DNA of 64,000 nucleotides from Aureimonas ureilytica (GTDB lineage: Bacteria; Pseudomonadota; Alphaproteobacteria; Rhizobiales; Rhizobiaceae): positions 1 to 64,000 of the forward strand of contig NZ_LDQA01000001.1 in NCBI RefSeq assembly GCF_001475935.1, written 5' to 3'. A program made the translations under genes and the position numbers. The notes beneath the pieces are model-generated. The model had not been told where the DNA came from and did no database searches. It saw only the letters and a list, made by a program, of their open reading frames with translations. Of the stretch, positions 32,840-61,739 are shown piece by piece (position 1 is the stretch's first letter; the number at the start of each line of letters is the position of its first letter).

Positions 32840-34264
32840 CTATTCTGCAGCTTCGGAGAGGGATTCGGGTTCGGACGTGTTCGCCAGCCAAGCTGCGAAG
32901 TGCTCCAGGGCACGTGCGGACAAAGCCATTTTCTTGGCGATGGTCTTCTCCTTGCCGCGAAGCCGTTTTCCGTCTTCGCGAGGAATGGTGATCGGCGGAA
33001 ACAAACCAAAATTGACGTTCATCGGCTGGAACGAACGTTTGCCGGGTTCCTCATCGGTCACGAGATGACCGCCCGTGATATGACCGAGCAGAGCGCCCAT
33101 CGCGGACGTCGCGGGGGGCGGCGAGACGATCTCGCCGCGCGCTTCTGCCGCCGCGAAACGGCCCGCGAGAAGACCGATCGAGGCCGATTCCACATAGCCC
33201 TCGCAGCCTGTGATCTGCCCGGCGAATCGCAGGCGCGGCAGGCTTTTGAGCCTCAACGTCCCGTCCAAAAGCGTCGGCGAGTTCAGGTAGGTGTTGCGAT
33301 GCAAGCCACCCAGCCGCGCGAACTCGGCATTCTCCAAGCCCGGAATGCTGCGAAAAATACGTACCTGATCGGCATATTTCAGCTTCGTCTGGAAGCCGAC
33401 CATATTGTAGAGCGTGCCGAGCGCGTTGTCTTGCCGCAACTGGACGACCGCGTAGGGCTTGATGTCCCGCTGATGCGCGTTGGTGAGACCCATCGGCTTC
33501 ATCGGGCCGTGTCGCAACGTCTCGACGCCGCGTTCCGCCATCACCTCAATGGGAAGACACCCATCGAAATAGGGTGTGCCTTCCCATTGTTTGAACTCGG
33601 TTTTGTCGCCGGCGATCAGCTGCGCGACGAAACTCTCATATTGATCACGATCAAGTGGGCAGTTCACATAGTCCTTGCCCGTCCCGCCGGGGCCGACCTT
33701 ATCGTAGCGGGACTGAAACCACGCCTTCTCCAGATCGATCGACTCGAAATGAACGATAGGGGCGATCGCATCGAAGAAGGCGAGTGCATCCGCACCTGTC
33801 GTATCGCGAATAGCCTCTGCCAAGGCGGGCGCCGTCAGCGGCCCGGTCGCGACAATGGTCGAGCCCCAGTCTTCGGGCGGCAGGCCGGCGATTTCCTCGC
33901 GGCGGATTTCCACCAGCGGATGAGCGGATAAAATCTCGGTGACGGCCTCGGCGAAACCGTCCCGATCCACGGCCAACGCCCCGCCGGCGGGCACCTGATG
34001 CGCGTCGGCGCATCGCATGATCAGCGAGCCCGCAAGGCGCATTTCCGCATGGAGAACGCCCACTGCATTGGTCGAGGCATCGTCCGAGCGGAACGAGTTG
34101 GAGCAGACCAACTCCGCCAAGGCATCGGTCTTGTGCGCGTCCGTTTCGCGGACACCACGCATTTCATGAAGAATAACGGGCTGGCCCGCCTGCGCGATCT
34201 GCCAAGCGGCTTCCGAGCCGGCAAGGCCGCCGCCGATAATGTGAATGGGTGTGATCTTGGTCAT
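32840..34264 (-). CDS. trmFO: Methylenetetrahydrofolate-tRNA-(uracil-5-)-methyltransferase TrmFO
   Basis: This folate- and FAD-dependent enzyme makes 5-methyluridine at position 54 of tRNA. The 474-residue protein starts with the FAD-binding [17 protein letters not shown] (about residues 8-24). [10 protein letters not shown] (about residues 52-61) and [11 protein letters not shown] (about 353) hold the conserved cysteines. It uses methylene-THF, unlike the unrelated SAM-dependent TrmA. The start is the ATG at 34264. Confidence 0.96.
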
Positions 34265-34343: not shown

Positions 34344-34455
34344 CGACAACACCCGCCGGGGGAGGACCGGCGGGTGTCGTTAGGAAGCCTGCGATGGGAG
34401 GAGGAGCCGCAGGCTTGCTGTCCACAAGGGCTCATGGGAGGAGGAGAGAGCCCGA
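34344..34455 (-). ncRNA. Candidate cuckoo/CcsR-like small RNA array downstream of DUF1127
   Basis: Three hairpins follow the DUF1127 gene on its strand. The first, GGGCUC/GAGCCC (34428-34453), and second, AAGCCUGCG/CGCAGGCUU (34385-34416), both have 14-nt loops containing CUCCUCCUCCC. The third, ACACCCGCCGG/CCGGCGGGUGU (34349-34377), has the 7-nt loop UCCUCCC and a U-containing tail, so it is likely the terminator. These loops are anti-Shine-Dalgarno sequences. The layout is that of the CcsR small RNAs, processed from transcripts of a DUF1127 gene in Rhodobacter. This is a prediction from structure and context. Confidence 0.8.
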
Positions 34456-34469
34456 GGGATAAAGGGAAT

Positions 34470-34613
34470 TCAGCGAACGGCCTGACGGGCGACCGACGGG
34501 ATGTCGGACCGGGCGATACCGAGATCCGACAATTCGCGCTGCGAAAGGCGGTTCAGCTCGGTGCAGGTTTCGCGGTAGCGGCGCCAAGTCGAATACGAGC
34601 GGATAATGTTCAT
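34470..34613 (-). CDS. DUF1127 small protein
   Basis: This gene encodes 47 residues, starting at the ATG at 34613. The sequence contains YSTWRRYRETCTELNRLS and QRELSDLGIARSDIP, the classic DUF1127 pattern of a basic, arginine-rich, YjiS-like domain. Members of this family bind RNA or affect phosphate, carbon and stress metabolism in alphaproteobacteria. The gene is followed 17 nt later by three CUCC-loop hairpins, as in the Rhodobacter ccsR locus. A stress-type promoter upstream is expected but I could not place one. Confidence 0.9.
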   Translation of the reverse strand: MNIIRSYSTWRRYRETCTELNRLSQRELSDLGIARSDIPSVARQAVR

Positions 34614-34848
34614 CGGTCGGGTTCCGTGATCGGTTCTAATCGATTGAAGTCGAGATCGAGAGGCGATCCGCTTCCGTGGTCACAACATACGGGAGCCTAC
34701 TCCCGACTGGTATGGCCGGGCTCGCATGGCAGGTCTGCGAATGATGCAATGCAACATGAACCGATTTAAACGATTGGGACGGCGTTTCGGCGCGGCAGCT
34801 CGGCGCAAGGCGCATACAACTGGCTTTGTCGCAAACCTGTTTTAAACT
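34614..34848. other. Divergent intergenic region between DUF1127 and tRNA-Leu
   Basis: It should contain the promoter of the DUF1127/small-RNA unit (leftward). A perfect hairpin CGGGAG-CCTA-CTCCCG at 34690-34705 would lie in its leader; its loop and stem resemble Shine-Dalgarno-like sequence on one strand. I found no clear RpoH-type or sigma-70 match for the leftward promoter. Confidence 0.4.
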
Positions 34849-61291: not shown

Positions 61292-61739
61292 GTGAGATTG
61301 CGGAGGGCCAAGCGGTATAAAGCTGCCTGGCGGGAATGCGCAGGCAAAAAAAATGCGAGGCCAAGCCTCGCATTTTAGATCACAAACCTGGACCTTGCAT
61401 CGACCCTTGGGCCGAGGCTGCGCTTTAGCGCGCCGAAGGTCACGTCCTCCCAAACGCGGTCTGCGGAAGTATGCGTCGTTCGACGCTTTTTGATGGACCG
61501 AACTTAGACTCTAAATCATGGTGCTGTCGAGTGCGAATGGCAGAAATGTGACGATTTCTTTCTCATCGCGCCTAGGACTTGAGCATGGCATGCCTCGAGC
61601 AAGCTTCGTGCTCGCCGGATACGATGCGATCCGGATTGATGGACGGCCTGTATTAGCTTCGCTTTGCATTCGGTGTTCGAGCCGTTAAGAAGCCGGGGCA
61701 GGGTATCCCTCCTCCTTTCTCGCCGAGCTTCGAGTTCTC
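61292..61739. other. 448-bp intergenic region with orphan reading-frame tail
   Basis: On the minus strand a frame runs from 61503 to a TAA at 61375, with 42 codons ending KRSLGPRVDARSRFVI. Codon use looks coding, but an upstream stop at 61504 leaves no ATG; the only standard start is a GTG that gives 22 codons. The stop overlaps a strong minus-strand terminator. A hairpin CGAGCA/TGCTCG lies at 61596-61614. The region also must contain the proS promoter. Confidence 0.45.
61346..61376 (-). terminator. Strong minus-strand terminator
   Basis: A perfect 12-bp stem AAAATGCGAGGC/GCCTCGCATTTT with a 3-nt loop (61350-61376) continues on the minus strand into eight T residues in all. On the plus strand the T-run is only four, so this mainly ends a leftward transcript; it may also stop the DUF1467 transcript. 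Confidence 0.8.

Follow-up and report, generated by a model that had tools for sequence, protein, structure and literature searches.

The window analysed here is a 64,000-nt stretch of DNA from Aureimonas ureilytica. Re-reading of the sequence showed that, the minus strand carries, in this order, a short DUF1127 gene (34470-34613), three hairpins (34346-34453) and trmFO (start 34264). The features of the locus are as follows.

34470..34613, minus strand: gene of a small arginine-rich DUF1127 protein of 47 aa (Pfam PF06568, 49.2 bits; cut-off 23.3)
34344..34464, minus strand: ar14-family sRNA, an array of CCUCC hairpins (RF02344, 76.5 bits; cut-off 58.8; fold z -8.5)
34428..34453, minus strand: hairpin 1, stem GGGCUC/GAGCCC, 14-nt loop UCUCCUCCUCCCAU at 34434-34447 (folding and sequence)
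34385..34416, minus strand: hairpin 2, stem AAGCCUGCGG, 12-nt loop CUCCUCCUCCCA at 34395-34406 (folding and sequence)
34346..34380, minus strand: hairpin 3, a probable terminator, 14-bp stem, loop UCCUCCC at 34360-34366 (folding and sequence)
32840..34264, minus strand: trmFO, 81 nt beyond hairpin 3 and a neighbour of such arrays in many relatives (NCBIfam NF003739, 671.5 bits)

The loops of hairpins 1, 2 and 3 contain CUCCUCCUCCC, CUCCUCCUCCC and UCCUCCC, respectively. The 130-nt stretch folded at -58.3 kcal/mol (z = -8.5), and 0 of 200 dinucleotide shuffles folded as well. The gap between the stop codon of the DUF1127 gene (34470) and the ar14 match (34464) is 5 nt. An earlier note on this DNA had described a 47-residue DUF1127 gene with three hairpins on the same strand, and the Pfam match, the hairpin coordinates and the fold z-score confirmed this description. 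The stems and loops were also as described, except that the second loop, given as 14 nt, has 12 nt in the minimum-energy fold and reaches 14 nt only with the last G-U pair open. The terminator role given to hairpin 3 can be kept as probable only; its U-rich tail is interrupted, and a simple terminator scan did not list it. Elsewhere in the window, positions 61347-61493 (minus strand) matched Rfam ar9 (RF02343), an alphaproteobacterial sRNA family, with 47.2 bits (cut-off 45).

RNA family, loops and stems

Rfam analysis revealed a match of positions 34344-34464 to the full length (1-123) of the ar14 model (RF02344), with 76.5 bits against a cut-off of 58.8 (E 5.2e-12). The CcsR1 model (RF02791) scored 24.1 bits at the locus, far under its cut-off of 65.3, and an overlapping 6C match scored 40.6 bits, under the cut-off of 47. 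ar14 was found in 21/21 genomes of the genus and, at E <= 0.001, in 97 of the 101 genomes sampled from the family; with stricter filters, 91/101 had a match over the cut-off. The complete 9-mer CCUCCUCCC is present in hairpins 1 and 2; hairpin 3 has UCCUCCC alone, as it does in other members of the genus.

Conservation of loops and stems was compared in an alignment of the window with 30 loci of the family. In 31/31 rows, hairpins 1 and 2 kept CCTCCTCCC and hairpin 3 kept TCCTCCC without change, and 29 of the 32 predicted pairs had changed on both sides with pairing kept in at least one sequence, although in hairpin 1 several pairs were broken or gapped in up to 9/31 rows. The earlier claim that the loops, not the stems, are under selection was thus borne out; drift of the loops as fast as the stems was looked for among these ar14 loci and was not seen, in a set whose 30 loci had been picked as top ar14 matches and are therefore biased towards that model. 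A second comparison, in which hairpins were sought blind to loop letters, is free of that bias. Of 201 hairpins lying up to 260 nt downstream of 64 DUF1127 genes, 91 had CCTCC loops, versus 7 of 768 control hairpins from 260-nt stretches (plus strand) on the far side of 80 named trmFO loci among the matches listed. For the 64-gene set, identical stretches were kept once and at least 200 nt of downstream sequence was required. The DUF1127 pattern missed one copy of the window's own genome (C35), which was added by hand to the later cassette tree and selection analysis. None (0/12) of the DUF1127 genes with an MNPIRIAK-like sequence, most of which come from Rhizobium and Sinorhizobium, was followed by a CCTCC hairpin.

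The possibility that the array arose by chance or reflects low complexity in a GC-rich genome is refuted by these conservation results and retains almost no probability. CTCCTCCTCCC does occur 7 more times elsewhere in the genome, and a reversed control pattern is no rarer (13 vs 9); however, the fold z-score, the ar14 E-value, the hairpin counts and the presence of ar14 in nearly all sampled family genomes cannot be reconciled with chance.

The cuckoo RNA family, as defined by Reinkensmeier and Giegerich in 2015, reportedly comprises two to four adjacent hairpins with a conserved CCUCCUCCC loop and variable stems. The features of this type are all present here: two hairpins with the complete motif and a third whose loop is shorter, an invariant loop and covarying stems. 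The CIN1 feature, a short DUF1127 gene directly upstream of the array on the same strand, is also present. Because ar14 scores over its cut-off and the loops are invariant while the stems are compensated, the locus is, as judged from its sequence, a cuckoo/CIN1-type sRNA locus of the ar14/cuckoo RNA group. The earlier assignment to a cuckoo/CcsR type therefore holds in its cuckoo/CcsR-like part and is not supported for CcsR1 itself, the matching family being ar14.

RNAs with several hairpins were described from Rhizobiales in 2011; their loops carry CCUCCUCCC, their stems vary, and they are present in several copies per genome (PMC3927594). Short DUF1127 proteins have often been associated with CcsR-like sRNAs in alphaproteobacteria, as in the CIN1 locus (PMC10253847). 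Since both the RNAs and the CIN1 pairing are already published, the window locus is of a known kind. The order is known as well: ar14/NfeR1 and DUF1127-linked CCUCCUCCC RNAs have been published for Rhizobiales and alphaproteobacteria, and the suggestion that the locus would place the type in a different order was mistaken.

Published RNA systems were compared with the locus. ar14/NfeR1 (RF02344) of Sinorhizobium and relatives shares three hairpins with anti-Shine-Dalgarno (aSD) loops, diverged stems and the order Hyphomicrobiales; the LsrB-type box upstream of the window array is one mismatch off the NfeR1 form. NfeR1, however, has been described as a transcript of 123 nt that has a promoter of its own (PMC10746234), whereas the window array follows a DUF1127 gene, has its box 135 nt before that gene and carries only UCCUCCC in its third loop. 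The CcsR1-4/ccaF1 operon of Rhodobacter sphaeroides (RF02791) shares a short DUF1127 gene directly upstream of, and on one strand with, a CCUCCUCCC-loop RNA. It differs in that the CcsR1 model has two hairpins and the R. sphaeroides cluster four RNAs, against three hairpins and a CcsR1 score of only 24.1 bits at the locus; CcaF1 has 71 aa, against 47 aa for the protein of the locus; and the operon has an RpoHI/HII promoter, whereas no RpoH-like site was detected at the locus with a crude pattern. The cuckoo RNA family and CIN1 locus (Reinkensmeier and Giegerich 2015), together with the SmelA075 and SmelA099 families (PMC3927594), share adjacent hairpins, CCUCCUCCC loops, variable stems, multiple copies and linkage to short DUF1127 genes. 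In contrast to the situation described below, the part of those accounts available to us contains no multiplication of a whole box-to-terminator cassette.

The position before trmFO recurs in relatives. Among the matches listed, 80 named trmFO loci were kept, 79 of them with at least 400 nt upstream. By pattern search, 53 of these 79 listed loci had a same-strand DUF1127 frame within 2.2 kb upstream; in 29 of the 53, DUF1127 and at least two CCTCC hairpins preceded trmFO, and this arrangement was lacking in the other 24. The array-bearing loci include Brucella, Phyllobacterium, Mesorhizobium, Aminobacter, Aureimonas, Aurantimonas, Oricola, Chelativorans and Roseibium. Of the 80 loci kept among the matches listed, the one from Aureimonas flava has the TrmFO most similar to that of the window (86% identity). 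One genus genome (G104) has a DUF1127 protein letter-identical to that of the A. flava locus (L045), and ar14 scored 78.8 bits in both. Across the 21 genus genomes, 49 of 81 ar14 matches (28 of the 40 over the cut-off) lay within 260 nt downstream of DUF1127, and their spacing was fixed, with a distance of 28-46 nt to the end of the Pfam match in 45/49.

At the trmFO locus of Aurantimonas sp. 22II-16-19i (L057, 2078-2884), twelve tandem CCUCC-loop hairpins lie between DUF1127 and trmFO, as six repeats of a hairpin plus a terminator-like hairpin. Given six successive terminator-like hairpins, one may ask how transcription reaches the more distant units.

Promoter and candidate regulator

An LsrB/VtlR-like LysR box was found 135 nt before the DUF1127 start codon. 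The promoter features are as follows.

34735..34748, minus strand: LsrB-like box TGCATCATTCGCAG, one mismatch to the published NfeR1 form TGCA-N6-GCAT (sequence)
34724..34738, minus strand: VtlR-like box GCAGACCTGCCATGC, overlapping the LsrB-like box, one mismatch to the published GCAT-N3-TG-N3-T (sequence)
34684..34689, minus strand: possible -10 hexamer TATGTT (suggested by the sequence and the spacing in PMC10746234)

The LsrB motif TGCA-N6-GCAT lies upstream of NfeR1 at -72 to -57 (PMC10746234). The VtlR box has been given as GCAT-N3-TG-N3-T (PMC7486931), and the reported VtlR-binding motif is CAATGCAGCCATGCA (PMC12595884). By analogy with the spacing of the LsrB box at NfeR1, the transcript may start near 34676-34677, a position that TATGTT would fit. 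A sigma-70 scan of the locus gave 0 sites.

The DUF1127 pattern collected 66 promoters. Genes were classed as array-linked (46 genes) when at least one CCTCC hairpin was present, and a few of the 46 may therefore be so by chance. The relaxed box TGCR-N6-GCAK, a pattern chosen after inspection of these promoters, was present 85-175 nt before the start of 34/46 array-linked DUF1127 genes vs 3/18 genes without arrays; random genomic stretches gave a mean of 1.2/46 and a maximum of 5 in 200 draws. The strict box was present in 23/46 array-linked genes and 2/18 others (random 0.5/46, maximum 4), the published VtlR form in 19/46 and 4/18 (random 0.5/46), and the relaxed VtlR form in 26/46 and 4/18. 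These box counts are not independent, because promoter rows are related: the window's genome supplies six of the 46 genes, of which five are close paralogues, and the Mesorhizobium rows are also close relatives. When the six genes were left out, the relaxed box was present in 28/40.

Among 29 distinct array-linked genes of the genus, 15 had the relaxed box without mismatch, 12 with one mismatch and 2 with two. Random stretches of these same loci contained it in 31/1120 cases, and in 260/1120 when one mismatch was allowed; a relaxed box with one mismatch is thus common by chance. At several trmFO-type genes of the genus, the box ends in GCAG or GCAA, not GCAT.

In the window's genome, a LysR-type gene lies directly after trxB (G000:C152), the arrangement given for vtlR (PMC7486931). 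For this gene, the cut-off was reached by none of the 25 listed of 52 NCBIfam matches. ar15/AbcR, another known VtlR target, had no match in the genome at E up to 0.1. VtlR of Brucella is a positive regulator of three DUF1127 genes and AbcR2 (PMC12595884). These Brucella genes share short DUF1127 proteins and a VtlR-type box with the window locus; the account differs in covering proteins only, and the downstream hairpins are unmentioned in the part of it available to us (PMC12595884). At the Brucella rhizosphaerae and B. endophytica loci L043 and L047, DUF1127 and an array are found by trmFO.

The earlier note had cited heat-shock sigma factors for the CcsR RNAs of Rhodobacter sphaeroides. The crude RpoH-like pattern occurred in 0/46 promoters (random mean 0.8), a result that weakens heat-shock control rather than excluding it; enrichment was seen for the LysR-type box instead.

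Copies in the genome and the dispersed cassette

The window's genome contained 10 DUF1127 matches. Three CCTCC motifs followed DUF1127 at seven sites: the window (C1), C95, C99, C103, C132, C133 and C173. C35 had two such motifs, its first loop having drifted to UUCUCCCC; in C133 the first hairpin was absent from the best fold, and the C99 array scored 34.9 bits with ar14, under the cut-off. No such array was seen by eye at the DUF1127 matches C106:43236 and C124:63226, and the weak ar14 match of C124 (25.5 bits) lacks a CCUCC loop. An array behind a diverged frame without Pfam match (C162) and one without DUF1127 (C116) bring the CCUCC arrays to ten in all. The window array is of the trmFO-linked type with CUCCUCCUCCC loops and is the only one of the ten with that 11-mer. 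At E <= 0.001 the genome has 10 ar14 matches, the most among the 101 family genomes (next 8); of the other genus genomes, G113 has 9 and the rest have 1-5.

Several other RNA-like elements were observed in this genome. The C116 array (G000:C116:72696-72803, plus strand; L034), an ar14 array without DUF1127, has its own LsrB-like box 73 nt upstream, which is an NfeR1-like layout. At G000:C68:36820-36937 and G000:C106:74729-74804 (both plus strand; L036 and L041), a CUUCCUCCCAG / UUUCCUCCCAG segment precedes a terminator whose loop contains CCUCC. Their ar14 scores were weak (32.5 and 21.8 bits), with no Rfam match at E <= 0.01. These two segments are possibly diverged AbcR-like RNAs; the ar15/AbcR model matches nothing in the genome at E up to 0.1. 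G000:C113:28539 (plus strand; L037) matched ar7 with 55.1 bits, just under the cut-off of 60.

C35, C95, C103, C132, C133 and C173 share a cassette of 410-465 nt with 86-94% identity at dispersed places. The six-copy alignment extends from the box, or shortly after it, to the terminator, so that the cassette consists of box, DUF1127, array and terminator. Comparison of the 1.5-kb flanks gave two further matches, one of 73 nt (C133/C173) and one of 287 nt at 89% (C173/C35); the latter pair may belong to a larger duplication, given the length of its flank match. When the reading frames flanking nine arrays were listed (90 aa or longer) and the nearest neighbours inspected by eye, no transposase was recognised, and the flanking frames look ordinary. 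In a tree of 25 cassettes, in which 10/22 inner branches were weak, the six copies grouped together (99/98), apart from the cassettes of G113, G119, G114 and G111. Pairing by genome was also seen for two copies each of G119 and G113, but one G114 copy paired with G111 instead. This topology would fit separate multiplication in lineages or gene conversion. G113 had 11 DUF1127 matches, and 8 of the 11 stretches had at least two CCTCCC motifs downstream. In the six cassettes, CCTCCC of the second and third loops was identical (6/6) and the first loop was variable. Mean dN was 0.021 and mean dS was 0.179 over 15 pairs, indicating that the DUF1127 protein is under purifying selection in the duplicated copies.

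Selection on the protein is compatible with another explanation of the array, namely that it acts mainly in cis as a 3' element that protects or terminates the DUF1127 mRNA, or shields trmFO from read-through, with no use of the loops in trans. The terminator-like last hairpin, 81 nt before trmFO, points the same way. However, an invariant loop is needless for stability or for a terminator role, and it is the stems that vary while the loops stay constant. Moreover, 12 of the 40 over-cut-off ar14 matches of the genus have no DUF1127 just upstream, and neither has C116, which has its own box. We therefore consider a mainly cis-acting role improbable.

The leaders of the six cassettes, ~200 nt before DUF1127, contain long conserved blocks after the box and, immediately ahead of the start, an inverted repeat (GCCGGCC...GGCCGG); they may form a structured 5' UTR. 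A DUF1127 gene of S. meliloti is subject to uORF-dependent attenuation (PMC12218461).

As a tentative and rather doubtful proposal, the derived cassette of the genus (LysR box, DUF1127, three hairpins whose loops are mostly UCCUCCC, and a terminator) may be a dispersed, repeatedly multiplying regulatory unit, copied separately in lineages without a recognised adjacent transposase, selection having maintained its protein in every copy examined. A cell would then hold a co-regulated family of small proteins and anti-Shine-Dalgarno RNAs whose dosage or loop variants might tune the translation of many genes. No description of a multiplied cassette was found in the open-licence literature among the matches listed, which is weak evidence of absence.

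Proposed function and implications

By analogy with published relatives, the locus probably encodes a LysR-activated DUF1127 gene with a three-hairpin precursor that is processed into an aSD sRNA silencing many mRNAs; we hold this reading with fairly good confidence. A LysR regulator (LsrB/VtlR) would switch on one transcript comprising the short DUF1127 protein and the three terminal hairpins. The 3' part would accumulate as an sRNA of ~120 nt through RNase E processing, perhaps assisted by the DUF1127 protein as with CcaF1. The exposed CUCCUCC loops would serve as redundant anti-Shine-Dalgarno seeds that pair with ribosome-binding sites of the GGAGG type, and translation of many mRNAs, probably of transport and metabolic genes, would be silenced. 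What the sequence itself shows is the anatomy, the family membership, constant loops on covarying stems, the recurring place before trmFO, the box enrichment and a LysR gene next to trxB; transcription, regulator, processing, the part of the protein and the targets are carried over from published relatives. In the related systems, the three aSD motifs of NfeR1 are redundant in silencing and LsrB activates NfeR1 (PMC10746234), and the ccaF1-CcsR co-transcript is processed by RNase E (PMC10253847).

The loops might instead bind a protein, either the neighbouring DUF1127 protein or another binder of C-rich RNA, and act as a decoy or autoregulatory site rather than on Shine-Dalgarno sequences. The DUF1127 protein CcaF1 has RNA-binding activity and is involved in the maturation of the downstream CcsR RNAs (PMC10253847), and DUF1127 and the array are kept together at a fixed spacing. 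Silencing by NfeR1, however, needs the aSD seeds in reporter assays (PMC10746234), and many ar14 arrays have no DUF1127 neighbour, so that protein binding is an unlikely principal role. DUF1127 proteins of Agrobacterium and E. coli bind PhoR (PMC12501420); since such proteins elsewhere act through contact with PhoR, not RNA, the DUF1127 protein and the RNA may share only a transcript.

Targets were sought in the window. Outside the array, three start sites with a strong Shine-Dalgarno sequence precede frames of at least 100 aa, and none is compelling. As a check on self-silencing, GGAGG was found before the start of 1/46 array-linked DUF1127 genes vs 13/532 first-ATG frames, a comparison that is uninformative because the starts are uncurated.

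These findings fix the identity of the locus and propose its regulator. One unit from promoter to terminator joins LsrB/VtlR control, short DUF1127 proteins and aSD sRNAs, which have hitherto been studied apart in Hyphomicrobiales. Published phenotypes of DUF1127 deletions (phosphate, fucose and C1 metabolism) may partly stem from the downstream RNA, if the deletion touched it. Genomes with many copies, such as that of the window, offer natural material for asking how many interchangeable anti-Shine-Dalgarno RNAs a cell holds and whether their targets differ.
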